Shown: piece by piece, positions 27,262 through 59,223 of the stretch
How the letters are laid out: every line of letters starts with the position of its first letter
Position numbering within the stretch: position 1 is the first letter of the stretch
From: Pseudomonas syringae CC1557
GTDB lineage: Bacteria > Pseudomonadota > Gammaproteobacteria > Pseudomonadales > Pseudomonadaceae
Direction: 5' to 3'
DNA: 64,000 nucleotides
Assembly (NCBI RefSeq): GCF_000452705.1
Contig: NZ_CP007014.1
Coordinates: 2,914,001 to 2,978,000 of the forward strand
Program-made: the position numbers and the translations under genes
Notes under the pieces: model-generated
The model's database searches: none
Seen by the model: the letters and a program-made list of their open reading frames with translations, nothing else
What the model was told of the DNA's origin: nothing

Positions 27262-28110
27262 TCAATGGACTGAGTGCGCCAGACTGTCTAGAAAGCCTGC
27301 GACCAAGCCATTGAACACTTCGCTTTGATCATCATGAACATAGTGACTGGCATCTGCCACTTCCACGGCTTGGACCTGCGGATTGCTGGCGCACATGGCC
27401 TGCAGCATTGCAGGTGGTAGAAAGTCCGAACGGCCACCGCGAATGAACAGGCTTGGGCAGTCCAGGGAGCGCACCGCCGGCCACAGATCAGTAGGTTCGA
27501 TACTCAGTCGTGCTTCGGCAATCCCCTGCTGATCATGGCGCCAGCCAACGACTCCGTCGCGCTCCTGCATAGAATGCGCGAGCCTTGATTCCAGGCCCTG
27601 CTCCGACAAACCTGGGCGTGAAGCCCTCCAGAATGCGCGGGCTGCGTCCCAGCTTTCGAACTGCAGCGGCGTCTGACCCATCTCGCGTCGAATACGCGCG
27701 GCGCCATCGCCTTGGGTTGAAGACCCGGGGCCGATATCCTCGATCAGCAAGCCTATCAAGCGTCCCGGGTGTTGCCGCGCATACTCGAGGGCGTTGGCGC
27801 CGCCCAATGAGTGCCCCAGCAATACAAAACGCTGTAAGCCCACATGGTCGATCAAGTCCTCAAGATCCTCGACATACGATTGAGTGTGATAACTGGCGGG
27901 TTCAGCCCAGTCGCTTAACCCCCGCCCGCGCTGGTCAAGGGCAAAGATGCAGTAGCCCTCCCCCAGGGCCTGCACCAGAGACTCCCAGGTCTGTGCATAG
28001 GCGCGCAAGCCGTGCAAGAGCACCAACGGCACGCCGGTCGACGCGCCCCAGCGCAAATAGTGCAGGCGCAAGCCCGAACGATTGGTGAAGAAACAGCTGT
28101 CAGCAAGCAT
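27262..28110 (-). CDS. alpha/beta hydrolase
   Basis: A 282-residue alpha/beta-hydrolase fold enzyme. The oxyanion motif is LLHGLRAYAQTW, the nucleophile is the Ser in LLGHSLGGANAL, the acid is in IRGGRSDFLPP and the His is in ADASHYVHDD. AAAGGAGC precedes the ATG. It is the last gene of a minus-strand unit (OCD protein, RidA, FAD oxidoreductase, hydrolase), 12 bases after the oxidoreductase. It may hydrolyse an ester, amide or lactone, or a C-C bond in a meta-cleavage product; sequence alone does not decide. Confidence 0.85.
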   Translation of the reverse strand: MLADSCFFTNRSGLRLHYLRWGASTGVPLVLLHGLRAYAQTWESLVQALGEGYCIFALDQRGRGLSDWAEPASYHTQSYVEDLEDLIDHVGLQRFVLLGHSLGGANALEYARQHPGRLIGLLIEDIGPGSSTQGDGAARIRREMGQTPLQFESWDAARAFWRASRPGLSEQGLESRLAHSMQERDGVVGWRHDQQGIAEARLSIEPTDLWPAVRSLDCPSLFIRGGRSDFLPPAMLQAMCASNPQVQAVEVADASHYVHDDQSEVFNGLVAGFLDSLAHSVH

Positions 28111-28122
28111 GGCCTTGCTCCT

Positions 28123-29415
28123 TTAGAAACGGTCAAAGCGGTAAGGGCTTGGGTCAATGATCGGCGTGTGCCCACTGATCAGGTCCGCCACGAGGTGACC
28201 CGCCGCTGGCGATGTGCCGAACCCGTGCCCCGAGAAACCGGTGGCAACGGTCAATCCCGGGATCTGCGCAACCGGACCGATGACTGGATTGGAATCGGGC
28301 GTCACATCGATAGTGCCCGCCCAGGCATGCGCGATCCGCGCCTGTTCGAACACCGGCCAGGCGGCAATCAGGTTGTTCATCGCGTCGTTGTTGAGCCGTG
28401 GGTTGGCCACTGGATCCTGCACCCTGACACGTTCGAACGGGCTCACGCTGTCTGCCCGCCAACGACGTGCCAGCGCCAGGTCATTGATAAACGGCTTGCC
28501 CAGCGACACGTTCAGCACACTGCGCTGCGCACGAAACTGCGGCATATACTGCTTGGCGAGCAACAGGTGATCGAGGGTCAGGAAGGCGTCCAACTTGCCG
28601 CGTTGGGTAATGATGAAACCTCCGTCCTTGTGCTTGCGAAACGAAAAGTCCGGCGCGCCAACAGCTATCTCTGTCGGCCCTTGCATGGGGTGGGTACGCA
28701 GTACCGAGCAGGTCAACGGCAAGGTCGGCAACGAGACACCGAGGTTGCCCAGAAAGCGACGTGACCACATGCCCCCTGCGAGCAAGACGTGATCACAGCG
28801 AATTTCACCTTTTTCCGTGACCACGCCACTTACCGCCCCTGCGGACATCTGCAGTGTACGCACCGCGCATTGCTCAACGATAACCACGCCCTTGTCCATG
28901 GCCGCCTTGGCAATCGCGCTGCTGGCCAGCGTCGGTTCCGCACGCGCATCGGATGGCGTAAAAATACCGCCGGCCCAGTTACCCGCGCCGCCTGGTACGA
29001 GCGTATCAATCTCTCGTTTGCTGAGCAGGCGCGAATCCAGCGACAAGTGCTCTACTGACTTAAGCCAACTTTCGTGCATGGCCATTTGCGCCGGGGTGCG
29101 CCCGACAAACATGATGCCTTCCTGGCGATACCCCACATCCGCCCCTACCCGCTCAGGCATCTGCGCCCACAAGCGGTCAGCGGCGAGGGCCAGTGGGATG
29201 TCGGCCGCGTGGCGGCTGGTCTTGCGCACCCAGCCCAGGTTGCGGGATGACTGCTCGGCGGCGATCCGGCCTTTCTCCAAAACCACCACCGAGATATTGC
29301 GCTCGGCCAGGGTCAGCGCAGCTGTCAGGCCGATGATCCCGCCACCAATGATGACGACGGATGTCGCAGGGGGAATAACAGTGGAGGTTGTCACGGGCGC
29401 AATTGTCGGGGCCAT
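28123..29415 (-). CDS. FAD-dependent amino acid/amine oxidoreductase (DAO family)
   Basis: A 430-residue DAO-fold flavoprotein. The dinucleotide-binding motif is VVIIGGGIIGLTAALTLAE, and the C-terminal FAD contact is TGFSGHGFGTSPAAGHL. A substrate-cap domain lies between, with TIDVTPDSNPVIGP. Relatives oxidise glycine, D-amino acids or N-methyl amino acids to imines. The RidA homologue immediately upstream would hydrolyse such an imine. ATG 29415 is preferred over the TTG frame start at 29421, although neither has a strong Shine-Dalgarno. A residue-level substrate prediction is not possible. Confidence 0.85.
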   Translation of the reverse strand: MAPTIAPVTTSTVIPPATSVVIIGGGIIGLTAALTLAERNISVVVLEKGRIAAEQSSRNLGWVRKTSRHAADIPLALAADRLWAQMPERVGADVGYRQEGIMFVGRTPAQMAMHESWLKSVEHLSLDSRLLSKREIDTLVPGGAGNWAGGIFTPSDARAEPTLASSAIAKAAMDKGVVIVEQCAVRTLQMSAGAVSGVVTEKGEIRCDHVLLAGGMWSRRFLGNLGVSLPTLPLTCSVLRTHPMQGPTEIAVGAPDFSFRKHKDGGFIITQRGKLDAFLTLDHLLLAKQYMPQFRAQRSVLNVSLGKPFINDLALARRWRADSVSPFERVRVQDPVANPRLNNDAMNNLIAAWPVFEQARIAHAWAGTIDVTPDSNPVIGPVAQIPGLTVATGFSGHGFGTSPAAGHLVADLISGHTPIIDPSPYRFDRF

Positions 29416-29472
29416 GGTCAAGACTCGGTAAGCGAATAAGGGCGGCCAAGCCTGCGCACGGCCGCGTGACGA

Positions 29473-29895
29473 TTATTGCGACAGTCGAATGACCTCGACC
29501 TTGGCCTTCGACACGTTGCGATACGCGGTCACTTCCAGCTCCACCTTGTAGACCGTCGAGCCCAGGGGCGGACAGGTGACAGTGCTGGCCGGATCCACGC
29601 CGCGAAACTTTTCACCGATCAGGCCCATCACGGCCGGCACATCCTTGGGGTCCTGGATAAATACGCGCGAACACACCACATCAGCCAGGCTCGCATCGAC
29701 GACTTTCAGGGCTGACTCGATGTTGGCAAACACCTGGTGTGTCTGCTCCAGGACATCCTCCGGGATCAGCTTGGTCTGTGGGTTGCGGCCAGCGGTGTTG
29801 GACACATAGATCCAGTTGTCCACGGCCACCAGGCGTGAATAGCTGGCCTGGTCTTCGAATGGCGAACCGGTCTTGAGCTTGATGATTTTTGTCAT
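29473..29895 (-). CDS. RidA-family imine/enamine deaminase
   Basis: A 140-residue YjgF/YER057c/UK114 protein. The family core is visible: YSRLVAVDNWIYVSNTAG, DVVCSRVFIQDPKD and STVTCPPLGSTVYKVELEVT. RidA proteins hydrolyse reactive enamines/imines released by PLP enzymes or amino-acid oxidases to keto acids and ammonia. ATG 29895 is chosen (GAGG upstream, normal family length); the open frame extends to 29955 and would overlap the preceding gene. It sits 35 bases after the OCD-family gene and 57 before the FAD oxidoreductase. Confidence 0.87.
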   Translation of the reverse strand: MTKIIKLKTGSPFEDQASYSRLVAVDNWIYVSNTAGRNPQTKLIPEDVLEQTHQVFANIESALKVVDASLADVVCSRVFIQDPKDVPAVMGLIGEKFRGVDPASTVTCPPLGSTVYKVELEVTAYRNVSKAKVEVIRLSQ

Positions 29896-29930
29896 GTCGA
29901 ATGCCTCGTCAGTTTGAAGGAAGGTGTGGC

Positions 29931-31070
29931 TTAGCGCAGCTCCGGGGTTTCCCACAGGTTCAAGGTCACGCCGATACCTTGCTTGACTGCGTTGCGGTAC
30001 ACGACCGTGCCCCAGGCCACGTCTTCGACGGGCATACCGCCCACCGACATGATGATGATTTCCTCATCGTTCCTGCGGCCAGGTGCGGCCCCGGCGATGA
30101 TCTTGCCGATGTCCTCGAGGTCGTCAGGCTGCATCTTGCCTTCGGCAATCATGTCCATGAAGCGCACACCAATCACCGGCACATTGTGATGCGCAGGCTT
30201 GGGCAATTCTTCAAACCAGGCCTGATAAAGACCGGTGTTGTCGAGCACCTTGCGTATGTCAGGCTGCTCCATTCCAGCGTCGAGCGAACAAGACGCCGGC
30301 ATCGCGAGGAAGGCACCTGGCTTGACCCATTCACGCCGCACAATTGGGTAGATCGAGGGATCGCCTGTGGCGCCGGAGCTACAATAAGTAACAAGGTCCG
30401 AGTCGCGGACTACCGCTTCGAGGGTGTCGACCACTTCTATCGTGGTGATCTGCGGATAAGTCTGTTCGACCCATGCGATAAAGTTGTCGAGGCTCTTCTG
30501 TCCACGGCCCTTGATCTTCAGGGTATCGATGTGCGGGCACACCGCAATGAAGGCCGCCAGGGTGGTCTTGCCCATGACGCCAGGCCCCAGCAGGCCGACG
30601 ACTTTCGAGTCCTTGCGCGCCAGGTGGCGTGCGCCCACGCCGGGAATTGCACCGGTGCGATAAGCGGACAGCAGGTTGGCTGACATATGCGCCAACGGCG
30701 CGCCGGTGTCGGGGTCGTTGAGGGTGAACATCAGGATCGAGCGCGGCAGGCCTTTTTCGCGGTTGGCGATATTGGAGCCGTACCATTTCACGCCAGCGGT
30801 GCAGAAGCTGCCACCCAGATAGGCCGGCATGGCCATCATGCGCCGATCAGCCGTGGGCTTGGGCATGTTCGGGAACGGCGAATCCTGCGGAAAAATCACC
30901 ATTGCACCATGGGAATCATTATTCGGGCCGGCCATGCGATAGTCACCGGAATACAGCAACCCAAACATCTCCTCCATGGTATTCACGCAGGCCAGCATGT
31001 CGGTCACACCCGCGCGGATCATGTCCTGCTCGGAGAGGTAGATAAAGTCGATTTTTGTAGTTGTAGACAT
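29931..31070 (-). CDS. ornithine cyclodeaminase/mu-crystallin-family protein
   Basis: 379 residues of the OCD/mu-crystallin superfamily, NAD(P)-binding. The core includes KWYGSNIANREKGLPRS, SAYRTGAIPGVGARHL and the Rossmann turn VGLLGPGVMGKTTLAAF. The family includes ornithine and lysine cyclodeaminases, alanine dehydrogenases and ketimine reductases. It is longer than bacterial ornithine cyclodeaminases by roughly 40-50 residues. It is first in an operon with RidA, an FAD oxidoreductase and a hydrolase and is divergent from an AraC gene. It likely acts on an imine/amine intermediate. Opine breakdown is an alternative reading. Confidence 0.85.
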   Translation of the reverse strand: MSTTTKIDFIYLSEQDMIRAGVTDMLACVNTMEEMFGLLYSGDYRMAGPNNDSHGAMVIFPQDSPFPNMPKPTADRRMMAMPAYLGGSFCTAGVKWYGSNIANREKGLPRSILMFTLNDPDTGAPLAHMSANLLSAYRTGAIPGVGARHLARKDSKVVGLLGPGVMGKTTLAAFIAVCPHIDTLKIKGRGQKSLDNFIAWVEQTYPQITTIEVVDTLEAVVRDSDLVTYCSSGATGDPSIYPIVRREWVKPGAFLAMPASCSLDAGMEQPDIRKVLDNTGLYQAWFEELPKPAHHNVPVIGVRFMDMIAEGKMQPDDLEDIGKIIAGAAPGRRNDEEIIIMSVGGMPVEDVAWGTVVYRNAVKQGIGVTLNLWETPELR

Positions 31071-31256
31071 AGTTATTCTCAGGCTGAAGGTGATATCACT
31101 GCGGTAGGCGCAGCTCCACGCTTTCGAGTCCGAGTATCAGGTGGCAGGTATCGGCGGTATTGTAAATTTCGGACATTGCGCTCTACGGGTACGCTAAATA
31201 GTTGGCGCGATTAATGCTTTTAACTTGCCGTGCCGCAGCCTTCCCAAGGTGCAACC

Positions 31257-32084
31257 ATGATCAAACCGAGCGTGCCGACTCCCCGGCACCACACAGCAAA
31301 CGAACAGCCTTGGTTCGTGCTCAACTCTTCACGCTATTCGGTGATGCCTTGCGCGCACCCGGCGATCTCGCATTTCTATGCATTCGATGTGGCGCAATCG
31401 AGCAACCTGCTGGCCGTACCGGACGGCTGTGTGGATATTTTGTTCGACTGCGACGCGACGCGGCCTACCGCGCGGATCTGTGGCACTCCGCTGGTTGCCC
31501 AGGCCGTCGAGTTACACCAGCATCACCACTACTTCGGCGTACGCTTTTCACCGGGGATCATTCCCGGCTTCGTCAATGTGCTCGCAGAGGAGTTGACCGA
31601 ACGCGAACTCGACCTGCTGGAGGTATCAGAGTTTGCCCAACGCATCTTCGAAAGCATCGTCCAGGCACCGCTGCTGAGCGATCAGATGCGACTGTTCAAC
31701 GACTACCTGACCCCACGTCTGATGGGCAAGGCGTCGAAACTCACCGCCATGATCATTCAACAGGCGCTGCACCATCGCGGCGATATCCGCATTCGACAAC
31801 TTGAAGACCTCAGCGGCTATACCAGCCGTACCTTGCATCGCCAGTTCAACCAGGACACCGGCATGTCACCCAAGGCGTTTTGCCGGATCATCCGCTGCCA
31901 GGCGGCCCTGGACACTCTCAACACCCAGCACGATGTATCGTTTTCGCAGTTGGCCCTCGATCTGGGCTTTTCCGATCAATCGCACTTCCTGCGCGACTTC
32001 AAGAAACTCGTCAGCACCACACCCTGCGACTACCAACGCACAATGACCCAAAACGCCTACACCGACAGGATCAGCTACGCTTGA
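31257..32084 (+). CDS. AraC-family transcriptional regulator
   Basis: A 275-residue activator. The N-terminal ~150 residues form a ligand domain (LLAVPDGCVDILFDCD, HHHYFGVRFSPG). The C-terminal ~100 form the double helix-turn-helix (IRQLEDLSGYTSRTLHRQF and SFSQLALDLGFSDQSHFLRD). ATG 31257 has AAGGTG 6 bases upstream; GTG 31230 is in frame. It is divergent from the OCD-RidA-oxidoreductase-hydrolase unit across a 186-base gap and is its most likely regulator. Confidence 0.9.
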   Translation: MIKPSVPTPRHHTANEQPWFVLNSSRYSVMPCAHPAISHFYAFDVAQSSNLLAVPDGCVDILFDCDATRPTARICGTPLVAQAVELHQHHHYFGVRFSPGIIPGFVNVLAEELTERELDLLEVSEFAQRIFESIVQAPLLSDQMRLFNDYLTPRLMGKASKLTAMIIQQALHHRGDIRIRQLEDLSGYTSRTLHRQFNQDTGMSPKAFCRIIRCQAALDTLNTQHDVSFSQLALDLGFSDQSHFLRDFKKLVSTTPCDYQRTMTQNAYTDRISYA

Positions 32085-32230
32085 TCACGCTGTGCGCAAA
32101 TAAATCCGCGTCTCCATCGTTTCTCCATAAAACCTCCCATGAAAGCGCATGCTCGTGGTGCACAGTAGTCTTCGTAGCAACAGGGTAATTCGCCATACTG
32201 CGATGACCGAACTGCACGACCGAGCGGACC

Positions 32231-32977
32231 ATGACCGAATCACACCTTGCATCAACACCCACGAACCTCGCGGACAAACGCCAGGCGTTGATATTGATCG
32301 CCGAGGACGAACCCGAAATCGCCGACATCCTGAGCGCCTATCTCAAGCGCAGTGGCTTCCAGACCGCCCATGCTCTGGATGGTCGCCGCGCCCTTGACCT
32401 GCATCAATCGCTCAAGCCGGACCTGGTGCTGCTGGACGTGCTGATGCCGAACCTGGACGGCTGGATGGTACTGGCCGAGATCCGGCACCGGGGCACCACC
32501 CCCGTGATCATGCTGACCGCTCAGGACCAGGACATGGACAAACTCATGGGCTTGCGCATCGGTGCCGACGACTACATCGTCAAGCCGTTCAACCCGGCCG
32601 AAGTCGTGGCCAGGACCCAAGCGGTACTGCGGCGCTCGCTCGATCATGGCTATGCCGCCCGCCCCAGTGTCCTGCGGGTGAATGCCTTTGAAATCGACAT
32701 CGACAGCCATGAAGTCAGTGTGCAGATCGGGGCACACAAGTACCCGCTCCACCTGACAGTGACCGAGTTCAGGTTGTTGGCCCAACTGGCCAAGGCCCCC
32801 AGGCGCGTGTTCAGTCGCGCCGAGTTGCTGGCGCTGTGTTCGCCCGAGAGCGACAGTCTGGAGCGCACGGTCGACAGCCATATCAGCAAGCTGCGGCGCA
32901 AAATCGAAGATATGGGCCTCCAGGGCGTACCGGCCAGCATTCGCGGGGTCGGCTACCGGTTCGGGAGCACTCCATGA
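32231..32977 (+). CDS. OmpR/PhoB-type response regulator (BaeR-like)
   Basis: 248 residues. The receiver domain has acidic residues EDEPE, phospho-acceptor Asp in LVLLDVLMPNLDG, and Lys in YIVKPFNP. The winged-helix effector domain has VFSRAELLAL and RTVDSHISKLRRKIE. It overlaps the sensor kinase start by 4 bases (ATGA). It heads a five-gene plus-strand set with a kinase, two small proteins and an ABC membrane protein. Target genes are unknown. Confidence 0.92.
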   Translation: MTESHLASTPTNLADKRQALILIAEDEPEIADILSAYLKRSGFQTAHALDGRRALDLHQSLKPDLVLLDVLMPNLDGWMVLAEIRHRGTTPVIMLTAQDQDMDKLMGLRIGADDYIVKPFNPAEVVARTQAVLRRSLDHGYAARPSVLRVNAFEIDIDSHEVSVQIGAHKYPLHLTVTEFRLLAQLAKAPRRVFSRAELLALCSPESDSLERTVDSHISKLRRKIEDMGLQGVPASIRGVGYRFGSTP

Positions 32978-34050
32978 AGACCTCCAACAGTTTGAGCCGA
33001 CAGATCATTTTGTCGATGTCCGCCGTGGTGCTCTGCGTGATCGCACTGGCGTTGGTCGGCTCCTACGTGTTTTACGCGCTGCTCTGGATGTTCTGGCCGC
33101 CGTCGGATCTGGACGTAAACGAATGGCTGCCCACAGGCGTGGAGTGGGCATGGATGGCACTGATCACCTGCATCAGCCTGTCGATGGGCGCCGTGGTGGC
33201 GATCAAACTGTCCCGACGCATTCTGATGCCCTTGAACTCGGTCGCAACCAGCCTGCGCCGTCTCGCCGACGGCGACCTCGATGCCCGGGCCACCGCCTCC
33301 AACCGCTCATTGGCGGAGGCCACGTTGTTAGTGGATGACTTCAACAGCATGGCCGAACGATTGAAACGCATGGCCGAGGAGCAATCCTTCTGGAACGCCG
33401 CCATTGCACATGAACTGCGTACCCCTTTGACCATCCTGCGTGGCCGCCTGCAAGGGTTGGCGGAAGGCGTGTTCACCCCGGACCAGGCGCAGTTCTACAG
33501 CCTGCTCAACCAAGTGGAAGGCCTGACGCGCCTGATCGAAGACCTGCGGGTCGTGGGCCTGGCGGACAACGGCTACCTCGAAGTCCATATCCAAAGTGCC
33601 GACCTGGCCGATGAGATCGAGGCAGACGCTGCCCTGTTCGAACCGGGCCTGCTTGCATCCGGGTTCGTGCTGCATCTGAACCTGCTCAAACGGACTGTGC
33701 AGTGTGATCCGGCCAGGATCCGCCAAGCGTTGCTGGCCATGCTGGACAATCTGAGACGGCATGCAACCCCAGGCAATGTCACGGTGCGCCTGAGCAGCCA
33801 GGATGGCCTGAATACCTTGAGTGTCGCGGACGAGGGCCCCGGCATTGAAGAAGCCTTCGCAACGCACATCTTCGAACCGTTTCAGCGCGGGGAAAGTTCG
33901 CGCTCCCGTGCCCAGGGCGGCAGCGGCCTGGGACTCGCCGTGGTGCGCGCGATTGCCCTTTCCCACCGGGGCAGCGTGACCTGCCGAAACCTGGATAACG
34001 GCGGCACCTTATTCGAACTGAGCTGGCCCGACCAACTGGTCGCCATGTAA
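32974..34050 (+). CDS. sensor histidine kinase (BaeS-like)
   Basis: 358 residues. Two membrane helices (about 12-35 and 55-75) enclose a very short periplasmic loop of roughly 20 residues. HAMP, HisKA (phospho-acceptor His in AAIAHELRTPLTILRG) and HATPase (VADEGPGIEE, GGSGLGLAVVRAIA) domains follow. The small loop suggests sensing within the membrane or through a partner rather than by a large periplasmic domain. It overlaps the response regulator stop. A frame open upstream to 32836 is only the antiparallel shadow of the regulator and is discarded. Confidence 0.92.
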   Translation: MKTSNSLSRQIILSMSAVVLCVIALALVGSYVFYALLWMFWPPSDLDVNEWLPTGVEWAWMALITCISLSMGAVVAIKLSRRILMPLNSVATSLRRLADGDLDARATASNRSLAEATLLVDDFNSMAERLKRMAEEQSFWNAAIAHELRTPLTILRGRLQGLAEGVFTPDQAQFYSLLNQVEGLTRLIEDLRVVGLADNGYLEVHIQSADLADEIEADAALFEPGLLASGFVLHLNLLKRTVQCDPARIRQALLAMLDNLRRHATPGNVTVRLSSQDGLNTLSVADEGPGIEEAFATHIFEPFQRGESSRSRAQGGSGLGLAVVRAIALSHRGSVTCRNLDNGGTLFELSWPDQLVAM

Positions 34051-34073
34051 GTCCAACGGCTCCAGGTGAAGGC

Positions 34074-34274
34074 ATGCGCCTCTCTATTTTCACGGTCAAT
34101 CGGTACCGCCACTTTGCCTTGCTCGACACACAGGGGCGTTGTATCGCTTTCAAGAGCTGCGAAGGGATTCCAGAGAACGGCGAATGGGTGCAAGTCAACG
34201 AAGTGAACCTCGCCTGGTTGAACCGGGCGCTGCCTGTGCTCGCCCTGGCCAAGTCAAACACTCGCCTCTTGTAG
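34074..34274 (+). CDS. small protein of unknown function
   Basis: 66 codons, ATG preceded by AGGTGAAGG. The product has no signal peptide or membrane helix; it starts MRLSIFTVNRYRHFALLD and contains GWx-like GEWVQVNEVNLAWLN. It lies 23 bases after the kinase and 20 before the next gene, in the same direction, so it is probably co-transcribed. I do not recognise the family. Confidence 0.55.
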   Translation: MRLSIFTVNRYRHFALLDTQGRCIAFKSCEGIPENGEWVQVNEVNLAWLNRALPVLALAKSNTRLL

Positions 34275-34294
34275 GTCAGTCTGGAGTTGTCTGT

Positions 34295-50673: not shown

Positions 50674-52725
50674 ATGCAGCTAGCTAACCTCACCATTCAA
50701 TGGCGTATCACCCTGCTGAGCGGACTCTGCCTGCTGACAGTGGTGGCGGCCCTGATCGGCGCCAGCGCGTATCAGAATCAAGCCAGTGCAAAGCTGCTTA
50801 AAGAGCAGAGCAGCGAGCTACTCGGTCAGGCTGCGCTGGAGCGATTGCATGCCCAGGCCGTGGCACAGGGTCAACAGGTGGAGCGTTTTTTCAATGAAAC
50901 CGCGCTGTATGGCGAAGGCTTTGCGCAACAGGTACTGCAACTGCGCGAGCAAACACTCAACGGGCACCTGACGGTCGCGCAATTGCGCGAAGCCTTGATC
51001 AGCAACGCCCGTGAAGCCCTGAAGCAGCGCGAAAAAGTCCTCGGCCTGTACGTCATCATGCTGCCGGATGCGCTGGCCGGCGCTGACGCCGATTGGCGCG
51101 ACCAACGCGCCGTGGCGGGCAATGAAACTGGGCGGTTCGCGCTGTATTGGTCACAGAGTCAACCGGGGCAACTGGTGCAGGAGGTACTTGGCGAGGCACA
51201 AATCGCCGCGAACACCGCGCCCGCCGGCAGTGAACCGGGGAACGCCTGGTACGCCTGCCCTCAAGCGCAACGACGTGTGTGTGTGGTCGAACCGTATACC
51301 ATCGAAGTAGAAGGCCGAAAAGCCCTGATGAGCAGCGTTTCCATCCCCCTGGTTGTCAACGGCAAAGTGCTGGGCGTAGTGGGCATGGACATCAGCCTCG
51401 ACACCTTGCAGAAGCTGGCGGCGAACCTCGGCCAGGACCTCTATCAGGGCGACAGCCAAGTCAGCATCCTGTCAGCCACGGGCCAAGTCGCGGGACGCAG
51501 CGGCGGCGTCTCGGGGGACACGCTGGATATACGCCAACCCTTGCAGACGGCGGCGGGCACGCCTGCCTGGCAACTGGAGATAAAGGTTCCGCAGGCGCGG
51601 GTGCAGGCGCCTGCCCGGCAAATGCAAAGCGAACTGGACGACAAAAGTCGCGAGTCCAACTGGCTCAACCTGGGCCTGGGCATCTTTGCCAGCAGCCTGG
51701 GTATGCTGCTGATCTGGCTGGCCGCTTACGGCGTGACCCGCCCGCTGCTGAAGATGGCCGAGCTGCTTGATGCGATTGTCGAAGGCGACGGTGACCTCAC
51801 CCAGCGCCTGCCCAGCGGACGCAGCGACGAGCTGGGCCACTTGGCTAGTGGTTTCAATCGTTTCCTCGATAAGTTGCAGCCGATTATTCGCGACATCCAG
51901 GCCGCGTCCCTGGACACCCGCAACAGTGCCGACACCTCATCGGGGATTGCCCGCGAAGTCAGCGCAGGCATGCAGCGTCAGTACCACGAAGTGGAGCTGG
52001 CGGCGACCGCACTGCACGAAATGAGCGCCAGTGCCCAGGAAGTCGCGCGTCACTCCCACAGCGCCGCCGACGCCGCGACTGCCGCCGAAAACGCCAGCAG
52101 CTCAGGCCAGGCGGTGTTCTCGGCCGTCGAGCACAGCATCGAGGCCCTCGATCAACGCCTGGAAACCACCCTCCAGCAAGTCAACGCCCTTGCCGACAGC
52201 AGCGCACAGATAGGTCAGGTACTGGACGTCATCAGCGCCATTGCACAGCAGACCAACCTGCTGGCGCTGAATGCGGCCATCGAAGCGGCGCGAGCCGGCG
52301 AACAGGGCCGCGGCTTTGCGGTGGTGGCCGATGAAGTCAGGCACCTGGCGAGCAACACCCAGAGTTCGGTCGAACAGGTGCGCACGGTAATCGAGACGCT
52401 GCAACAGCTGAGCCGGGTAGTGGTTCACAGTACCCAGCTGAGCCGCGAGCAAGCTGGCGACAGCGTGCTCCAGGTGCAACAGACCCGCATTGCGCTGGGG
52501 CATATTTCCCAGGCCGTGGATGTGATCGACCAAATGAATCAGCAGATCGCCAGCGCTTCCCTTGAGCAGAGCAGCGTGGTGGACGACATCAGCCATCGAG
52601 TCAGCGATATCCGGGGCATCAGCGAAACACTCGCCGAGCGCATGAACGAAGCGGCGAAAGCCAGCGACGCACTGCATAAAATGTCCAATCATCAACAGCA
52701 ACTGGTCGGACATTTCCGCGTGTAA
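50674..52725 (+). CDS. methyl-accepting chemotaxis protein
   Basis: 683 residues. A first membrane helix (about 13-32), a periplasmic ligand domain of about 300 residues resembling dCache, a second helix (about 335-355), HAMP ([20 protein letters not shown]) and a cytoplasmic signalling domain follow. The domain has the conserved hairpin tip [21 protein letters not shown]. No C-terminal CheR-docking pentapeptide is seen. AGGAA precedes the ATG. Placement beside the permease, with shared motifs, suggests taxis toward the substrate of the cluster. Confidence 0.92.
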
Positions 52726-52789
52726 AACGTATGCCGTCCTGACTTGGTTACAGTGGCCGCCTTCCAACTCTCCTACATTGAGCCCCCCC

Positions 52790-54280
52790 ATGATTTTTCC
52801 ACGCCGCTGGCTGATCCTCGCGATCATTTCCAGCGCCTTGCTGCTCATCGTCATCGACATGACGGTGCTGTACACCGCTCTGCCCACGCTGACCCGAGAG
52901 CTGAACGCCTCGGCCTCGGAAAAACTCTGGATCGTTAACATCTATGCGCTGATCGCCGCCGGCCTGCTGCTGGGCATGGGTACCCTGGGTGACCGGCTCG
53001 GACACAAACGCCTGTTCATCGGCGGGCTCGGCGTGTTTGGCCTGTTCTCGCTGATTGCGGCGTTCTCACCCTCCGCCGCCGTATTGATTGGCGCACGCGG
53101 TTTCCTGGCGGTCGGCGCGGCGATGATGATGCCCGCCACGCTGGCAATCGTGCGGGTGACCTTCATCGATCCGCGCGAGCAGACCATGGCATTCGGTATA
53201 TGGGCCTCGGTGGCTTCAGGAGGTGCGGCGCTCGGTCCAGTGGTGGGCGGCCTGTTGCTGGAGCATTTTTGGTGGGGCTCGGTATTTTTGATCAACGTGC
53301 CGATTGTGCTGGTGGCGTTGATCCTTGGCGCCCTCTTGATCCCGAGTCACCCGGGGGATATTAGTAAACGCTGGGACTGGCTGGGATCGCTGCAGGTGAT
53401 GATCGGCTTGATCAGCGTCGCGTATGCGGTCAAGGAACTCGGCAAGCGCACGCCCTTCTTCGAAGGCATGCTGATCGCAATGGTGCTGGGCGCGCTGTTC
53501 CTGATGCTGTTTATTCGCCGCCAACGTCGCGCCACTCAGCCGATGCTCGACCTGGCGCTGTTCAAGGCAACGGGGTTCAGAAATGCGGTCATCTCGGCCG
53601 TGGTGTCCGCCGCTGCGTTGATGGGCATGGAGCTGGTGTTCAGTCAACGCCTGCAACTGGTGCTTGGCTTGTCGCCGTTGGAAGCGGCACTGTTCATCCT
53701 GCCGCTGCCGCTGGGCTCGTTTATCTCTGGGCCGCTGGCCGGCTACTACCTGCCTCGCCTGGGGAACCAGCGGATGCTGTTCTGGACCCTGTTGCTATCA
53801 GCTGCGTCGATGCTGGCCTACCTGCTACTGTATGACGCTGCGATGTACCTGCAACTGATCGTCCTTGCGCTGCTGGGTTTTACCATTGGCGCAGCACTGA
53901 CGGCGTCGTCCAGCACCATCATGCTCAGCGTACCCGTCAACCAGGCTGGCATGGCCGCCTCCATCGAGGAAGTGTCATTTGAACTGGGCGGTGCGATGGG
54001 GGTGACCCTCGCGGGCAGCCTGTTATCGGCGATTTATACGTATTCGGCGGGCGTGGTGATTCCATCCTGGCTGACCCGCGACCCTGCGACATTCGACAGT
54101 CTTGATGACGCGCTGGTCGTCGCTGAAACGTTGTCTCCAGAAGGCGCCGCCATGCTGCACGCATTCGCCCGCTCGGCGTTTGATGCCGGCTTTGTCGCGG
54201 TGCTGTCGGTGTCGGCGGCACTGCTTTTGACCGTAGCGCTGCTGGTCACGCTGAGCAAGCCACCCCGCGCGCCCCTGTAG
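52790..54280 (+). CDS. MFS exporter, DHA2 (14-helix) family, SmvA-like
   Basis: About 497 residues with 14 predicted helices. Motif A variant is GTLGDRLGHKRLF, motif C-like GGAALGPVVGGLLLEHF and motif D1 DMTVLYTALPTL. Relatives export quaternary ammonium compounds and dyes. ATG 52790 is chosen over the TTG at 52778; neither has a clear Shine-Dalgarno. It lies 64 bases after the chemoreceptor in the same direction. It could expel a toxic substrate or intermediate. Confidence 0.88.
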   Translation: MIFPRRWLILAIISSALLLIVIDMTVLYTALPTLTRELNASASEKLWIVNIYALIAAGLLLGMGTLGDRLGHKRLFIGGLGVFGLFSLIAAFSPSAAVLIGARGFLAVGAAMMMPATLAIVRVTFIDPREQTMAFGIWASVASGGAALGPVVGGLLLEHFWWGSVFLINVPIVLVALILGALLIPSHPGDISKRWDWLGSLQVMIGLISVAYAVKELGKRTPFFEGMLIAMVLGALFLMLFIRRQRRATQPMLDLALFKATGFRNAVISAVVSAAALMGMELVFSQRLQLVLGLSPLEAALFILPLPLGSFISGPLAGYYLPRLGNQRMLFWTLLLSAASMLAYLLLYDAAMYLQLIVLALLGFTIGAALTASSSTIMLSVPVNQAGMAASIEEVSFELGGAMGVTLAGSLLSAIYTYSAGVVIPSWLTRDPATFDSLDDALVVAETLSPEGAAMLHAFARSAFDAGFVAVLSVSAALLLTVALLVTLSKPPRAPL

Positions 54281-54297
54281 CCGCTGCTGCATCTGCT

Positions 54298-54481
54298 TTA
54301 AAGCTTGTGGCTGCCCAATGCCGCAAACTGCTGTGGCGATGCCTTGCGCAGCCGTGCCAGTTGGCTGGCACCGGTCAGCACGTCGAAATGCACCACCGCC
54401 AGGACTGGCACCGCCAATAGCGCCAGGCAGGAAAAACCGGAAGGATTTGCCCCCGCCAGACCCCGACCTGCAGCTCCGGGT
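54298..54481 (-). pseudogene. remnant of a second APC permease (C-terminal tail)
   Basis: This stretch repeats the 3' end of the permease gene at 48926. The minus-strand translation gives GFSCLALLAVPVLAVVHFDV, LTGASQL, ARLRKASPQQFAALGSHKL, against GFSCLALWAVLVLAVVHFDV and LAARLRKISPQRYLALGSHKL in the intact gene. About 75 bases (the last membrane helix) are missing. Bases such as TTGGCTGGCACCGGTCAGCA are identical in both. Upstream homology stops near 54481. It shows that a related permease once stood beside the AraC/aminotransferase unit. Confidence 0.85.
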
Positions 54482-54560
54482 GATCGGTAACGCAGGCACC
54501 CAAGGCCAAACACCCGTGTTTCCCAAGCAGTTTGTATCCGGTCCTTGCAGATTTTTTCGT

Positions 54561-55529
54561 TCAGGCGCGCGCGTAACCGGCGATGGCTGCGCGGGCGGTA
54601 TGGGACGGCAGCTCTGCGAACAGCTCCTGATACTCCGCTGCGAAATGGCTCAGGTGATAGAAGCCAAACTGGGCGGCGGCATCACCAATTGTCAGCTCGC
54701 AGGGACGGGTGGACATCAAGGTGCGGCGTACACCGTTGAGCCTTACAGAGCGCAGATAATTCAGCGGAGTGGTCTCGGCCACCGAGCGGAAGCTGTTCTG
54801 CAGCGTCCGGCGACTCACCTGAAGACGCTCGCACAGGCCGATCACGCTGGGCACGTCGATCATTTCTGCGGTGGTCAGGCGGTGGCATTTCTCGACAATG
54901 AAACTGCGCGTGGAGCTGGAGGTTCGCTGGTGTTTGTCACAGGCGGGGTCGGTCATCAGTTGCAACAGCTCGCCGAGCATCGTCTGCTCCAGCGCTACCT
55001 CACGATCCGGCGTGCTGTCGAAATTTTCATGCATCAGTGCCTGGGAGAAAAGCGCCAGCAATCGGCGCCGAGCCTGTGCGAATCGTTGAGGGGAAACCCT
55101 GATTACCGGCTGGCGCAGCAACCGGTTGAGTTCCTTCGCCGACGCCGTTTGCTCCATTGCCTGTTCGAACAATTCACGCTCGAAGGTGATTGAGAGCAGT
55201 TTCATGCCCATCGGCATATGGAACATGAACTCCTCGCCGCCGTGGAGAAAGAACAGGCTGCTGTCATCCACCTCGCGCCCCTGCATGCGAATCGAACCCG
55301 GGACGTTGATCGGCACGGCAAAGCACATCTTGCCGCGAGGCGCGACGCCGTTCTGTACCACTCGCTGATTGATCTGTTCGAGAAACACGTGACAACCGGT
55401 CGTCGTCAGTTGCATCAGCGAACTCTCGGCGCAGCCGGCGGTTAACTGGCTGTAGTCCTGGTTCCACTGCTGGATAGTGGCCGCATGGATGTGGACGTCT
55501 CGAAAATGGCTGATCGTCTGGTTTTTCAT
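54561..55529 (-). CDS. AraC-family regulator
   Basis: 322 residues. The C-terminal DNA-binding domain has SVIGLCERLQVSRRTLQNSF and TIGDAAAQFGFYHLSHFAAE. The N-terminal domain has HIHAATIQQWNQDYSQLTAG. ATG 55529 is preferred; the frame is open to 55634 but the added residues look non-coding. It is divergent from the aminotransferase-ALDH-cytochrome unit (189-base gap) and paralogous to the AraC gene at 35596-36537. It is the best candidate for binding the CCGATT-type motif. Confidence 0.88.
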   Translation of the reverse strand: MKNQTISHFRDVHIHAATIQQWNQDYSQLTAGCAESSLMQLTTTGCHVFLEQINQRVVQNGVAPRGKMCFAVPINVPGSIRMQGREVDDSSLFFLHGGEEFMFHMPMGMKLLSITFERELFEQAMEQTASAKELNRLLRQPVIRVSPQRFAQARRRLLALFSQALMHENFDSTPDREVALEQTMLGELLQLMTDPACDKHQRTSSSTRSFIVEKCHRLTTAEMIDVPSVIGLCERLQVSRRTLQNSFRSVAETTPLNYLRSVRLNGVRRTLMSTRPCELTIGDAAAQFGFYHLSHFAAEYQELFAELPSHTARAAIAGYARA

Positions 55530-55640
55530 TGCATCGCATGCCTCTGCCAATCTTCTTGTTTTTGATCGCCCAGGTTTGATAGTCGCACATAGCATAAATC
55601 CTGCAAGTTTGTTTGTGCGCTGGGATGCGTGCACTTCATG

Positions 55641-55657
55641 TGCCGATTCGGGCTACC
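55641..55657 (+). promoter_or_regulatory. regulator motif upstream of aminotransferase
   Basis: TGCCGATTCGGGCTACC matches the permease/chemoreceptor motif (TGCCGATTTGGGATAGC at 50574-50590, allowing base changes at three positions). It lies 61 bases before the aminotransferase ATG, in the AraC-aminotransferase divergent region. Confidence 0.5.
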
Positions 55658-55718
55658 CGTCAGGAACTCGCGCCGGAGATGATTGGCACACTTGAATAGA
55701 CATTCCAGAGAGACCGTC

Positions 55719-57095
55719 ATGAGTGAAGCCAAACTGCAATCCCTGCACTTCGCGGATGCCCCGCGGATTATCTCCGGCGAACTGCCAGGCCCCAAGACCC
55801 GCGAAGCTCTGGCGCTTTCGGCGCGTACCGAGTCCATGGCGCGCGGAGGCGGACGTATGCCGATCGCCATGGACCGCGCCTTCGGTGCGACCTTCAAAGA
55901 CCCGGACGGCAACACCTACATCGACCTGTCCGCCGGCGTCGGTGTCAGCAGCGTAGGCCGCTGCCACCCCAAAGTGGTGCAGGCGATTCACGAACAGTCC
56001 GCAGTGCTGATGCACGCCCTGGAAATTAACAGCACCCGGCGTACCGAGCTGGCCGCCAAGCTGTCCGAAATCGCGCCCGAAGGTTTGCGTGGCGACTGCA
56101 TCACCTTCTTCACGCAAAGCGGCAGTGATGCGTTGGAGGCGGCAATCAAGTTCGCCAAGCGCATAACCGGGCGGCACCAGATCATCGCCTTCCACGGCGG
56201 CTACCACGGCGTGTGGAACGCTTCAGGCTCGCTGACCACCGGCACGGCGTACCGCAAGGGCTTTGGCGCGCAGATGGGGGGCGTGATTCACGCCCCCTAC
56301 CCTTACGCCTACCGGTTCCCCTTCGACACCACCCATAAAAGCGCCGAGCAGATCGCCGGCGAGTACATCGACTACCTGCTGAACACCCCGTACACCGCCG
56401 CCGATGATGTGGCGGCGGTGATTGTGGAACCGGTACAGGGCGAAGGCGGCTACGTGCCGCCGTCGCCGGAATTCCTGCAATTGCTGCGCAAGGCCTGCGA
56501 CCGCAGCGGCACATTGCTGATTGTCGATGAAGTGCAGTCCGGCGCTGGCCGCACCGGCAAAATGTGGGCGGTCGAACATTCCGGCGTGAAGCCCGACATG
56601 CTCACCTTCGGCAAAGGCATCGGCAGCGACCTGCCCATGGCCGGCCTGATCATGCGCTCGGACCTGGCGGCGAAAATCCCCGACGGTTCCATGCCCAATA
56701 CGTTCGCCGCCAACTCGTTGTCGGCTGCGGTGGCACTGACCAACATCAGCATCCTGAAGGATCCTGAGCTCGACCTGCTCAACCGCGCCCACCTGCTGGG
56801 GCTGGAGGCACAGGCGCATATTCGCGGTTTCAACAGCCCGTTGGTCGGTGAAGTGCGCGGGCGCGGCCTGATGATCGGCATCGAACTGATCGAAGACCCG
56901 CTCACCAAGGCTCCCCTGGCGGGCGAAAAGATCGGCCAGTTAATGGGCTATCTGCTCAACCATGGCGTGCTGATGATTCCCTGCGGCCGCTACAGCAACG
57001 TGATGCGCGTGATGCCCTCGCTAACGATCTCCCGCGAACTGTTTTTCAAGGCACTGGACATCTTCGGCGATGCCCTGGCGTCTCTCAAGGCGTGA
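55719..57095 (+). CDS. class III PLP-dependent aminotransferase
   Basis: 458 residues resembling 4-aminobutyrate and diaminobutyrate transaminases. YIDLSAGVGVSSVGRCHPKV, the PLP-contact FTQSGSDALEAAIKFAKRIT, the Asp in LLIVDEVQSGAGRTG and the Schiff-base Lys in MLTFGKGIGSDLPMAG are all present. It would transfer an omega-amino group to an oxo acid, making an aldehyde for the ALDH 27 bases downstream. ATG 55719 is chosen over 55683. Confidence 0.9.
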   Translation: MSEAKLQSLHFADAPRIISGELPGPKTREALALSARTESMARGGGRMPIAMDRAFGATFKDPDGNTYIDLSAGVGVSSVGRCHPKVVQAIHEQSAVLMHALEINSTRRTELAAKLSEIAPEGLRGDCITFFTQSGSDALEAAIKFAKRITGRHQIIAFHGGYHGVWNASGSLTTGTAYRKGFGAQMGGVIHAPYPYAYRFPFDTTHKSAEQIAGEYIDYLLNTPYTAADDVAAVIVEPVQGEGGYVPPSPEFLQLLRKACDRSGTLLIVDEVQSGAGRTGKMWAVEHSGVKPDMLTFGKGIGSDLPMAGLIMRSDLAAKIPDGSMPNTFAANSLSAAVALTNISILKDPELDLLNRAHLLGLEAQAHIRGFNSPLVGEVRGRGLMIGIELIEDPLTKAPLAGEKIGQLMGYLLNHGVLMIPCGRYSNVMRVMPSLTISRELFFKALDIFGDALASLKA

Positions 57096-57122
57096 ACCTG
57101 CCCACTATTCGAGGACCGCAAA

Positions 57123-58577
57123 ATGACTGAGCACTTGAATCATTTCATCGACGGTACGCCTTGCGAAGGCTTCGACCATCGTCGTATCGACCTGGTCAGC
57201 CCCGTGACCGAACAGGTGTATGGGAGCTCCGCGCGCGGCACCCGCGAAGACGTGGACCGTGCCGTGGCGGCTGCACGCCGGCAACTCGACGGCGGCGAGT
57301 GGAGCCAACTCGACGGCGCCCAGCGTGGTCGACTGCTATCGAAACTGGCCGACCTGGTTGAGCGCGACACCGAACGGCTGGCCGATCTGGACGCCAACGC
57401 CATTGGCCGTTCGCCCATCGAACCGCGCCGGATGGACCTGCCCAACGCGGTCGCCAACCTACGCGCTGCCGCCGGTTGGGCCAACCAGCTCGAAGGTCGC
57501 ACCATTCCCACCGGGGGTTACTTCGGCACCAAAACCCTGTCATACACGGTACGCGAGCCCGTCGGCGTCGTCGGCGCGATCGTGCCCTGGAACTCACCGC
57601 TCATGATCACCGTGTGGAAGCTCGCCGCCTTATTGGCGGCAGGCTGCACAGTGGTGGTCAAGCCCTCGGAAGAAACCCCGCAGTCGGCCCTGCACCTGGC
57701 GCTGCTGGCGCAGGAAGCCGGCTTCCCGGACGGCGTGATCAACGTGGTCACCGGCTACGGCAACGAAGTCGGTCGCGCGCTGTGTGAACATCCGGATGTC
57801 GCCAAGATCAGCTTCACCGGCAGCCCCGAGGCCGGGCGTGAAATTCAGCGCACTGCCGGCGTGTTGTTCAAGCGCGTGGCCTTGGAATTGGGCGGCAAGA
57901 GCCCGCAGATTGTGTTCGACGATGCCTCCTTCGACGCCGCCCTGCGCGGCTGTACGCTCGGTCTTTTTGCCAACCAGGGCCAGGTGTGTGCGGCCGGTTC
58001 GCGGATCCTGGTGCAGCGTAGCCTCGCCGAGCGTTTCGGCGCCGCGCTGGCCGAGGCCGCACAGGCGGTAAACGTGGGTGATCCTCGCGAGCCCGGCGTA
58101 CAGATGGGGCCGGTGGCCAAGAAGGCGCAATTCGATCGCGTCAACCGCTACATCCAACGGGGTATCGACCAGGGCGCAACGCTGCTGGCCGGCGGCGTCT
58201 CGGCCCCTGAGCTGGGCTGGTTCGTGCGTCCGACGATCTTCGCCAACGCCCGTAACGATATGGAAATCGCCCGGGACGAGATCTTCGGTCCCGTCGGCAC
58301 GCTAATCACGTTCGACAGTGAAGACGAAGCCATCAGCCTCGCCAATGACAGCAGTTATGGCCTCGCGGCCACGGTCTGGACCAACGACCTGGTCAGAGCG
58401 CACCGTGTCGCAGCGGCGGTAAAAGCAGGCGCCGTGGGTATCAACTGCTGGAGCCCATTGGACGCCAACCTGCCTTGGGGCGGCGTCAAAACCAGCGGTA
58501 TCGGGCGTGAAGGCGGATTCAGCGGCGCGCTGGCCTACACCGAAGAGAAAGTCATCACCGTGCTGCTACCCGTCTGA
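57123..58577 (+). CDS. aldehyde dehydrogenase
   Basis: A 484-residue ALDH: PWNSPLMITVWK, FTGSPEAGREI, catalytic Glu in ALELGGKSPQ, catalytic Cys in GQVCAAGSRI, EIFGPVGTLI. It follows the aminotransferase by 27 bases, a typical pair for converting an amine or omega-amino acid to the carboxylic acid. The third complete ALDH of the island. Confidence 0.92.
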   Translation: MTEHLNHFIDGTPCEGFDHRRIDLVSPVTEQVYGSSARGTREDVDRAVAAARRQLDGGEWSQLDGAQRGRLLSKLADLVERDTERLADLDANAIGRSPIEPRRMDLPNAVANLRAAAGWANQLEGRTIPTGGYFGTKTLSYTVREPVGVVGAIVPWNSPLMITVWKLAALLAAGCTVVVKPSEETPQSALHLALLAQEAGFPDGVINVVTGYGNEVGRALCEHPDVAKISFTGSPEAGREIQRTAGVLFKRVALELGGKSPQIVFDDASFDAALRGCTLGLFANQGQVCAAGSRILVQRSLAERFGAALAEAAQAVNVGDPREPGVQMGPVAKKAQFDRVNRYIQRGIDQGATLLAGGVSAPELGWFVRPTIFANARNDMEIARDEIFGPVGTLITFDSEDEAISLANDSSYGLAATVWTNDLVRAHRVAAAVKAGAVGINCWSPLDANLPWGGVKTSGIGREGGFSGALAYTEEKVITVLLPV

Positions 58578-58659
58578 GTGCACGCCCTATCCTGACCGAG
58601 CCACCCTCCAACGTTGAGGGTGGCCATTGAACCGTGCATCGCTCCTTGGAGAGCCTGAT

Positions 58660-59223
58660 ATGAACCCAATAGATCAACCGATAATCGATCGGTACCCGAC
58701 CTCCCTGCGCGTGTTGCACTGGGTGCGTGCCGTGCTCGTCCTGGGCCTGCTCTGGGTCGGCTGGCACATGACCGGCATGAGTGATGAAGTGGCGAGAAAA
58801 TACGAGCTTTATTACCCGTGGCACAAGTCCTTCGGGGTGCTGACGTTCCTGCTGGTTCTGACTCAGCTCGCCGTGCGTTTTCGCACCCCGCATTTACCAC
58901 AGCCGCTGGAAACCCTGGCGGGGTATGAAAGGTTTCTGTCACGCCTGACGCAGCGCTTGATGTATTTGCTGCTGGTGATCGTGCCGTTGATGGGCTACTC
59001 CATGTCGAGCACCTACACGATGAGCGATGGGGTGTTCTTTTTTGGGGTTAATCTGCCGGAACTGCTGCCGAAGAATGACGATTGGTTCGCGGTGTTCCAA
59101 TGGCTGCACAACGTCCTCGCCTACAGCTTGTTGGCCCTGATCGTGCTGCATGTGGCGGGCGCGCTCAAGCATCGCTTCTACGACCGCGACCCGCGCAACA
59201 ACGTGTTGCGCCGCATGCTCTGA
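58660..59223 (+). CDS. cytochrome b561-family membrane protein
   Basis: 187 residues with four helices and the paired haem-b histidines (LHWVRAVLVLG, YPWHKSFGVLTF, FQWLHNVLAYSLLALIVLHVAG). Such proteins carry electrons between quinone pool and periplasmic or membrane partners, including some amine dehydrogenase systems. ATG 58660 follows GGAGAG. It lies 82 bases after the ALDH in the same direction, and a hairpin follows its stop. Confidence 0.87.
   Translation: MNPIDQPIIDRYPTSLRVLHWVRAVLVLGLLWVGWHMTGMSDEVARKYELYYPWHKSFGVLTFLLVLTQLAVRFRTPHLPQPLETLAGYERFLSRLTQRLMYLLLVIVPLMGYSMSSTYTMSDGVFFFGVNLPELLPKNDDWFAVFQWLHNVLAYSLLALIVLHVAGALKHRFYDRDPRNNVLRRML

Follow-up and report, generated by a model that had tools for sequence, protein, structure and literature searches.

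Gene content of the island

We analysed a window of 64,000 bp (positions 2914001-2978000 of contig 1 in the two-contig, 5.8-Mb genome of Pseudomonas syringae CC1557), which holds a 32-kb island whose gene content points to aromatic amine catabolism by meta-cleavage, apparently in an undescribed variant. In BLASTN comparison with Pseudomonas genome G017, synteny begins at 27276 and ends at 59323 of the window, in blocks of 85-87% identity (27276-32136, 35594-47411, 47402-54353, and 54583-59323). These limits agree almost exactly with the span of 27262-59223 that a sequence-only reading of this DNA had given to a catabolic island. All the genes listed in that reading were found in the span with intact frames, the Pfam match of the porin being weak and below cut-off. 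Missing from its list were the DUF1185 protein, a beta-propeller protein, a short-chain dehydrogenase, an alpha/beta hydrolase, an AdeRS-like pair with an ABC membrane protein, and a cytochrome b561.

The core operon lies on the minus strand. It begins with tpp, encoding a thiamine-diphosphate (TPP) enzyme (43526-45157) whose nearest solved relatives are benzoylformate decarboxylases, followed by genes for an aldehyde dehydrogenase (aldh1, 42024-43550), a short-chain dehydrogenase (sdr, 41202-41996; PF13561), a beta-propeller protein with no obvious signal sequence (bnr, 40149-41192), a single-domain VOC extradiol-type dioxygenase (voc, 39679-40137; PF00903), and a DUF1185 (“amino acid synthesis”) protein (39061-39663; PF06684, E 1.2e-64). 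The operon ends with genes for an FAD-dependent aromatic hydroxylase of the MhpA family (mhpA, 37391-39001) and an MhpD/DmpE-like hydratase or decarboxylase of the FAA superfamily (hyd, 36615-37394). An IclR-type, PcaR/PcaU-like regulator (45205-46062, plus strand; TIGR02431, 94 bits against a cut-off of 284.75) is divergent from tpp.

Another minus-strand operon carries the gene for an OCD/mu-crystallin family protein, which exceeds the cut-off of the NCBIfam family “tyramine oxidase subunit B” (tynB, 29931-31070; NF004848, 726 bits against 362), and genes for a RidA-family imine deaminase (29473-29895; PF01042, E 6.1e-20), an FAD oxidoreductase (dao, 28123-29421; PF01266), and, last in this operon, the alpha/beta hydrolase (abh, 27262-28110; PF00561). 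Divergent from it is AraC-type regulator 1 (31230-32084, plus strand; PF12833). The class III aminotransferase gene amt (55683-57095; PF00202, E 3.9e-99), aldehyde dehydrogenase gene aldh3 (57123-58577), and a cytochrome b561 family gene (58627-59223; PF01292) follow one another on the plus strand. The EutR-like AraC-type regulators 2 (35596-36537; NF007522 below cut-off, PF12833) and 3 (54561-55634) are both on the minus strand and 36% identical to each other. Genes suited to uptake and sensing lie between 46 and 53 kb: an outer-membrane porin-like protein (46073-47398, minus strand; PF13372), an APC-family permease (48926-50437, minus strand; PF13520), and a methyl-accepting chemotaxis receptor with a PDC/Cache sensor (50674-52725, plus strand; PF00015, PF22673). 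A further aldehyde dehydrogenase gene, aldh2 (47402-48874, minus strand), adjoins the porin gene, and an SmvA/QacA-like MFS exporter gene (52778-54280, plus strand; NF011571, 423 bits against a cut-off of 701) follows the receptor gene.

Conservation of the core operon and its hosts

Ten close orthologs of the hydroxylase were aligned, and the alignment led to 56 named core loci, 43 of them in Pseudomonas. Genes were tallied at a query coverage above one half and at self-chosen identity limits (35% for hyd, up to 60%) within flanks of at most 10 kb per side, where misses near locus ends are uninformative. The order tpp-aldh1-sdr-bnr-voc-DUF1185-abh-mhpA-hyd, abh being ignored, is kept in 50/56 loci. 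The genes mhpA, voc, and bnr each occur in all 56 loci and DUF1185 in 53, while tpp, aldh1, sdr, and hyd are each found in 52, with tpp, aldh1, and sdr occurring together in 52/56. The hydrolase gene was found in 51 loci and the IclR gene in 48; a porin-like protein adjoins the core at 60% identity or above in 36/56.

The 13 non-Pseudomonas hosts include Acinetobacter, Marinobacterium, Nitrincola, Amphritea, Pseudomaricurvus, Curvibacter, and Ideonella, as well as bins of Paucimonas, Oceanospirillales, and Methylocystaceae. A diverged core (mhpA at 45-50% identity) was seen on plasmids of Burkholderia pyrrocinia and Variovorax and, as a second locus, in Ideonella and Curvibacter. A plasmid search with voc returned six records, three of which were distant Novosphingobium matches, and a class-wide search with the hydroxylase at E ≤ 1e-100 found it in one of 274 genomes, the window's own. 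A minimal trio of the bnr-voc-mhpA type, seen in the three of 56 loci (Curvibacter/Ideonella) that lack tpp near mhpA, was considered and set aside, as all three genomes have a second core elsewhere.

Individual loci also show local additions. Around its bnr-voc-mhpA trio, one Curvibacter locus (L066:5063-15687) carries a TauD-family piece, a PRK07481 aminotransferase, an aldh3-like dehydrogenase (80%), a nitroreductase, and an ORF that by eye resembles cytochrome b561. Marinobacterium ramblicola (L070:6975-17900) has adjacent duplicate copies of bnr and mhpA. In Nitrincola (L072:13909-18035), the core is followed by a gene of the carboxymuconolactone decarboxylase family, TRAP-like transporter genes (called by eye), and a cupin.

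Linkage of the amine units to the core

The genes for the hydroxylase, the aminotransferase, and the OCD protein were each searched in 119 Pseudomonas genomes, the source genome included. At E ≤ 1e-100 the hydroxylase was found in 24 genomes, in 11 of them at 78-100% identity and in 13 at 36-39%; the latter were set aside as a different subfamily, and the 11 genomes were counted as core-bearing. The aminotransferase (E ≤ 1e-150, 90-100% identity) occurs in the same 11/11 core-bearing genomes and in none of the 108 others. Since the two genes lie on different contigs in G001 and G039 and 42-44 kb apart in G010 and G113, close linkage alone does not explain this match, which also makes the substrate class directly testable. 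A search of the gene order among Pseudomonas genomes, as the sequence-only reading had proposed, showed that core and aminotransferase recur together. P. trivialis (G031) keeps almost all of the island in the order of the window, except that exporter and chemoreceptor have changed places and that the two-component pair is absent.

Beyond Pseudomonas, an aminotransferase (80% identity), an AraC regulator (59%), a porin (59%), and a permease (72%) directly adjoin tpp-sdr-bnr-voc-DUF1185-abh-mhpA in Ideonella. The B. pyrrocinia plasmid carries, after the core, genes for a NIPSNAP protein, a dehydrogenase, an IclR regulator, two porins, a cytochrome b561, an aminotransferase of PRK07481 type, an aldehyde dehydrogenase, and an APC permease, and then an AraC-like gene. 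A few kb upstream of the core in B. pyrrocinia (L109:507-4494), the presence of genes for an aminotransferase, a gamma-glutamyltransferase, and an agmatinase may point to polyamine-type substrates.

The dao-ridA-tynB unit is tied to the core by the relocation of abh. Among the 50 order-conserved loci, abh lies between DUF1185 and mhpA in 34 and is missing from this position in 16. In 14 of these 16, all Pseudomonas, dao-ridA-tynB is in reach and abh follows dao at a distance of 16-427 bases (14/14); in the other two (L030, L037), neither abh nor dao-ridA-tynB was seen in the fetched stretch. In a tree of 41 abh proteins (that of the window, those of 10 of the 14 tynB-linked loci, and 30 selected from core-position loci), the 11 tynB-linked proteins form one clade (support 100/100), which nests within a Pseudomonas group otherwise in core position (87/93, midpoint root). 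The tree was built without L027, L035, L036, and L081, which were cut by the locus end and failed the length and coverage filter, and without the other core-position loci. The simplest reading is that abh moved once from the core into the tynB operon. Nitrincola (L072) has a tynB unit near the core without abh.

At E ≤ 1e-120, the OCD gene was found in 15 genomes, namely 8/11 core-bearing and 7/108 others (p 1.1e-6), so that dao, RidA, and the OCD protein behave in part as a module of their own; the occurrence of units on their own elsewhere, named beforehand as something that would speak against a joint pathway, is thus seen in part. On RidA, the available part of PMC10949508 only names a general module. 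Overall, the earlier proposal that the units form one pathway largely stands, carried by the 11/11 match of aminotransferase and core, the contiguous sets, and the relocation of abh, with the dao-RidA-OCD unit as the part that does not fully follow. That amine deamination and ring cleavage belong to a single pathway is in our view probable.

Proposed pathway

From these families and their arrangement, the locus could serve the catabolism of two related compounds, an alkylamine with an aromatic (probably hydroxyaryl) group and an aromatic L-amino acid. Both would become an arylacetate-type acid and then be hydroxylated and meta-cleaved; this is our leading reading, though held tentatively. The compound would be taken up and sensed through the porin, the APC permease, and the chemoreceptor. 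In one branch, the class III aminotransferase would turn the amine into an aldehyde, which aldh3 would oxidise to the acid. In the other branch, the L-amino-acid-deaminase-like dao, together with RidA, would convert the amino acid to the 2-oxo acid, tpp would decarboxylate it, and aldh1 would oxidise the resulting aldehyde to the same acid. That the two entries may meet in an arylacetate-type acid is suggested by the closest solved relatives of dao and tpp and by the StyD best matches of aldh1 and aldh3. Next, the MhpA-like flavoprotein would hydroxylate the acid in ortho position, the single-domain VOC dioxygenase would open the ring, and the propeller, the DUF1185 protein, abh, and hyd would break down the ring-fission product. 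With three AraC and one IclR regulators, the units are probably switched separately. An aromatic, amino-substituted substrate, the individual reactions, and the position of the tpp-aldh1-sdr set before ring cleavage are all predictions, and the upstream position of the TPP enzyme and aldh1 is proposed with the same reserve as the pathway itself.

The ring-cleavage part had been read beforehand as a route of MhpA-type hydroxylase, extradiol dioxygenase, and MhpD hydratase, and this is supported only in part. The hydroxylase exceeds the MhpA-family cut-off (NF004831, 779.4 bits against 546), and residues H9, H69, and E118 of voc, which we take to be the 2-His-1-carboxylate metal ligands predicted for type I extradiol dioxygenases, show at least 97% conservation across 62 sequences. 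The later steps fit the Mhp scheme less well. The hydratase-like hyd has 2-oxopent-4-enoate hydratases as its nearest solved relatives (8ih6, E 3.2e-29) and is far below the MhpD and DmpE cut-offs (NF008461, 118.8 of 350 bits; TIGR03220, 128.5 of 408.8). An MhpE/DmpG aldolase (TIGR03217) was over cut-off in none of the 11 core-bearing Pseudomonas, the best score being 144.8 of 286 bits. Among the other core-bearing records, 9/13 have an aldolase over cut-off, these nine being all the Ideonella, Acinetobacter, and marine genomes tested; there was no match at E ≤ 1e-40 in 2/2 Curvibacter genomes, and none in the two plasmid records, which are partial genomes. The hydrolase abh likewise scores low against C-C hydrolase profiles (BphD 26.8 of 462 bits, HsaD 58 of 400), and its similarity to AAMS hydrolase, PcaD, and MenH is closer than that to the BphD/HsaD type. 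Among its solved matches at E ≤ 1e-18, none is named a C-C hydrolase; the nearest is 3bwx, an unassigned hydrolase, followed by AAMS hydrolase 3kxp (E 3.3e-23). The DUF1185 protein, whose nearest solved structures are two uncharacterised entries, and the beta-propeller are recurrent parts of the core without an assigned step. It is conceivable, though slightly more doubtful than the two-branched reading, that the core is a ring-cleavage route of a new type. Its MhpA-like hydroxylase and its VOC dioxygenase of one domain would feed propeller and DUF1185 enzymes without MhpC and MhpE steps, with exchangeable entry modules for amines and amino acids, in Gamma- and Betaproteobacteria.

Several observations weigh against the two-branched pathway. 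Both StyD (phenylacetaldehyde dehydrogenase) matches miss their cut-offs, that of aldh1 with 600.6 of 850 bits (NF045735) and that of aldh3 with 650.7 of 800 (the Rhodococcus-type NF045736), and tpp exceeds the NCBIfam cut-off for the acetolactate synthase large subunit (NF005760). The sdr product, for which 3-hydroxybutyrate dehydrogenases are one likeness among a great many families, none of them reaching its cut-off, has no firm step. The oxidoreductase dao is a full-length homolog of L-amino acid deaminase 5fjm (E 3.6e-73, 250 bits, query residues 9-430), an enzyme we take to be from Proteus. The L-amino acid deaminases of Proteus bear an N-terminal membrane anchor, and in dao no separate anchor was seen, its only N-terminal hydrophobic stretch (residue 21) being the FAD-binding segment. 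The tynB unit is missing from 3/11 core-bearing genomes and stands without the core in the seven others. The co-occurrence of aminotransferase and hydroxylase (Fisher p 9.5e-16) is uncorrected for ancestry. In the two marine loci whose flanks were read, Nitrincola (L072) and Amphritea (L075), the core has TRAP-like or TctABC-like transporter genes (by eye) as neighbours, and these suggest that the substrate there is an acid.

Alternative explanations

The place of tpp, aldh1, and sdr is where the alternatives differ most. Were the substrate an octopamine-like phenylethanolamine, the aminotransferase and aldh3 would yield an arylglycolate, sdr would oxidise it to an arylglyoxylate, tpp would decarboxylate this, aldh1 would form a hydroxybenzoate, and mhpA and voc would hydroxylate and cleave it. 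Such a scheme gives sdr a step, draws on the benzoylformate decarboxylases nearest to tpp among solved structures, and accommodates the joint occurrence of tpp, aldh1, and sdr in 52/56 loci. There is no clear role in it for the deaminase-like dao, however, and tpp aligns F with H281 and T with S26 of benzoylformate decarboxylase, while H70 is kept; altogether we consider it unlikely. The same three genes could instead act after ring cleavage on the 4-hydroxy-2-oxo acid from hyd, as a substitute for the missing MhpE/MhpF aldolase and dehydrogenase. The TIGR03217 results for the core-bearing Pseudomonas and for Curvibacter, and the likeness of sdr to 3-hydroxybutyrate dehydrogenases (one among many families below cut-off), agree with this, but 9/9 tested core-bearing Ideonella, Acinetobacter, and marine genomes do have the aldolase, and such a placement seems quite improbable. 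About as improbable is an N-heteroaromatic ring, which voc would open to an enamide on which abh would act like the hydrolase of alpha-(N-acetylaminomethylene)succinate (AAMS), releasing succinic semialdehyde for a semialdehyde dehydrogenase. The rank of AAMS hydrolase as second-best solved match of abh fits this, as does an aldehyde dehydrogenase after the Amphritea core that exceeds the succinic semialdehyde dehydrogenase (SSADH) subfamily cut-off (660.8 against 646.35; a similar one in Variovorax is below, at 478). Yet hyd resembles a hydratase of carbocyclic meta-pathways, and distant alpha/beta hydrolase matches say little about the substrate.

Two further explanations deny that the amine units belong with the core. 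Independent metabolic units may have been gathered by chance in an insertion region, a view to which the separate regulators and the seven genomes with tynB and no core lend something; the 11/11 match of aminotransferase and core, the contiguity of the same set in Betaproteobacteria, and the relocation of abh make it very unlikely. Least likely of all, the core would be a variant of the naringenin fde operon with the amine units as chance neighbours. An FAD hydroxylase and a single-domain VOC dioxygenase are indeed common to the island and fde/ifc as described in the accessible part of PMC11069340, and naringenin-like genes are reported, in what is available of PMC8515041, for strain SC5 of P. 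thivervalensis, a species with a window-type core. In P. thivervalensis DSM 13194, this core occupies 277-298 kb of one contig, but the genome has a separate, more fde-like cluster at 30-44 kb (L140:10638-19850) with genes for DUF1185, FAA, VOC, FAD hydroxylase, GntR, DUF1302, DUF1329, and MMPL proteins, of which the VOC protein is 25%, the hydroxylase 27%, and the DUF1185 protein 40% identical to those of the window. The fde-like cluster is 80-95 kb from acdS, and the window-type core lies in the opposite direction at about 150-170 kb. The locus tags in the available part of PMC8515041 imply a distance of 40-68 genes from acdS, in another strain, which the fde-like cluster fits more nearly; equating it with the reported naringenin-like genes goes by this approximate distance only and could be wrong. 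Moreover, no FdeR-type LysR regulator was among the island regulators found, which comprise only AraC, IclR, and one response regulator. The fde operon had been our first lead for the core and was disfavoured by the separate cluster in P. thivervalensis; compared without Fde protein sequences, the island core is probably not that operon.

The core is present in 11/119 sampled Pseudomonas and in other soil and marine bacteria, and from this wide occurrence a common natural amine or amino acid is the probable substrate. A verified pathway would reveal how plant-associated bacteria combine amine uptake, chemotaxis, and ring cleavage. It would also aid the assignment of function to PF06684 and to this propeller family, for neither of which we found an assigned role, and a route through propeller and DUF1185 enzymes, if true, would give both families functions.

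Residents, decay, and edges of the window copy

Not all genes of the island are likely to serve the pathway. The AdeR/AdeS-like two-component pair (both below cut-off) and the ABC membrane-domain protein (32231-35583, plus strand) fill the 32.1-35.6 kb interval; because they are absent from G017 and occur in only 6 and 7 of 56 relatives, they are probably not part of the pathway but a separate resident. Losses are also evident. In G017 and G113, an aminotransferase gene lies between aldh2 and the porin gene (of PRK07481 type in G017), and aldh2 is followed by a PRK07481-type aminotransferase in some relatives; in the window, this gene is missing, aldh2 ending at 47402 and the porin gene starting at 47398. 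A second APC permease gene, complete in G017 (364374-365915), is reduced in the window to a remnant at 54358-54482 (minus strand), a 90-95% repeat of 49046-49171. The island is thus left with a single aminotransferase and a single permease, against two of either kind in G017.

The mobile-element debris described earlier on both flanks could be confirmed on the right, where the C-terminal remnant of an IS66 transposase is found (59283-59510, plus strand; PF13817, E 1.9e-13). The left edge is decayed, with a short-chain dehydrogenase piece lacking its first half (26020-26394) and a fragment at 26757-27083 for which a Pfam search gave no match, but its mobile origin was not shown. Further left (16314-25143) are genes for a UDP-sugar dehydrogenase, a formyltransferase/epimerase, and a DegT aminotransferase, which resemble the arn operon for lipid A modification.

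Comparison with known systems

The gene combination had not been recognised from any described pathway, and a full-text literature search, aimed partly at the combination itself, agreed with this: no account of this gene set was found, with most subscription journals outside the coverage, nor did it appear in the literature on the naringenin, tyramine, ornithine cyclodeaminase, histamine, octopamine, and dopamine leads. The core was also considered as a stand-in for the canonical 4-hydroxyphenylacetate route and rejected as such, an HpaE-type dehydrogenase being present in 6/11 core-bearing genomes and 28/108 others; the core neither supplants that route nor depends on it. The source genome has no HpaE match at E ≤ 1e-180, a limit at which all 34 positive genomes exceed the TIGR02299 cut-off.

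Partial likenesses to several characterised systems can nevertheless be drawn. The tyn genes serve tyramine and dopamine catabolism in Pseudomonas putida U, and the OCD protein of the island passes the “tyramine oxidase subunit B” profile, a likeness that lies in the family name. With the Proteus L-amino acid deaminase, dao shares full-length homology and differs in its missing separate anchor and its link to RidA and the OCD protein. From the mhp pathway for 3-(3-hydroxyphenyl)propionate, the island shares the MhpA-family hydroxylase over cut-off, an MhpD-like protein, and an alpha/beta hydrolase, and it departs from it in its small VOC dioxygenase, the lack of an MhpE over cut-off in all 11 genomes, and the added TPP enzyme, short-chain dehydrogenase, DUF1185 protein, and propeller. 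Histamine catabolism in Pseudomonas (hinDAC), as far as the available part of PMC8231116 goes, likewise has an APC permease, an aminotransferase, and an aldehyde dehydrogenase at its front, and histamine chemotaxis is described there as well. In that account, which we compared by description and not by sequence, ring opening proceeds through HinFLHG to aspartate under the LysR regulator HinK, whereas the island has an FAD hydroxylase, a VOC dioxygenase, the nine-gene core, and AraC and IclR regulators. In the accessible portions of the work on flavonoid A-ring cleavage by fde/ifc in Herbaspirillum and Variovorax (PMC11303751, PMC11069340, PMC10799723), an FAD hydroxylase is followed by a glyoxalase/VOC-type dioxygenase, as in the island, but fde has a LysR regulator and ifc has cupins, in contrast to the AraC/IclR regulators, TPP enzyme, and amine units found here. 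Since the trio of hydroxylase, VOC dioxygenase, and DUF1185 protein occurs in two unlike clusters of P. thivervalensis, the window core would represent another branch of this trio.

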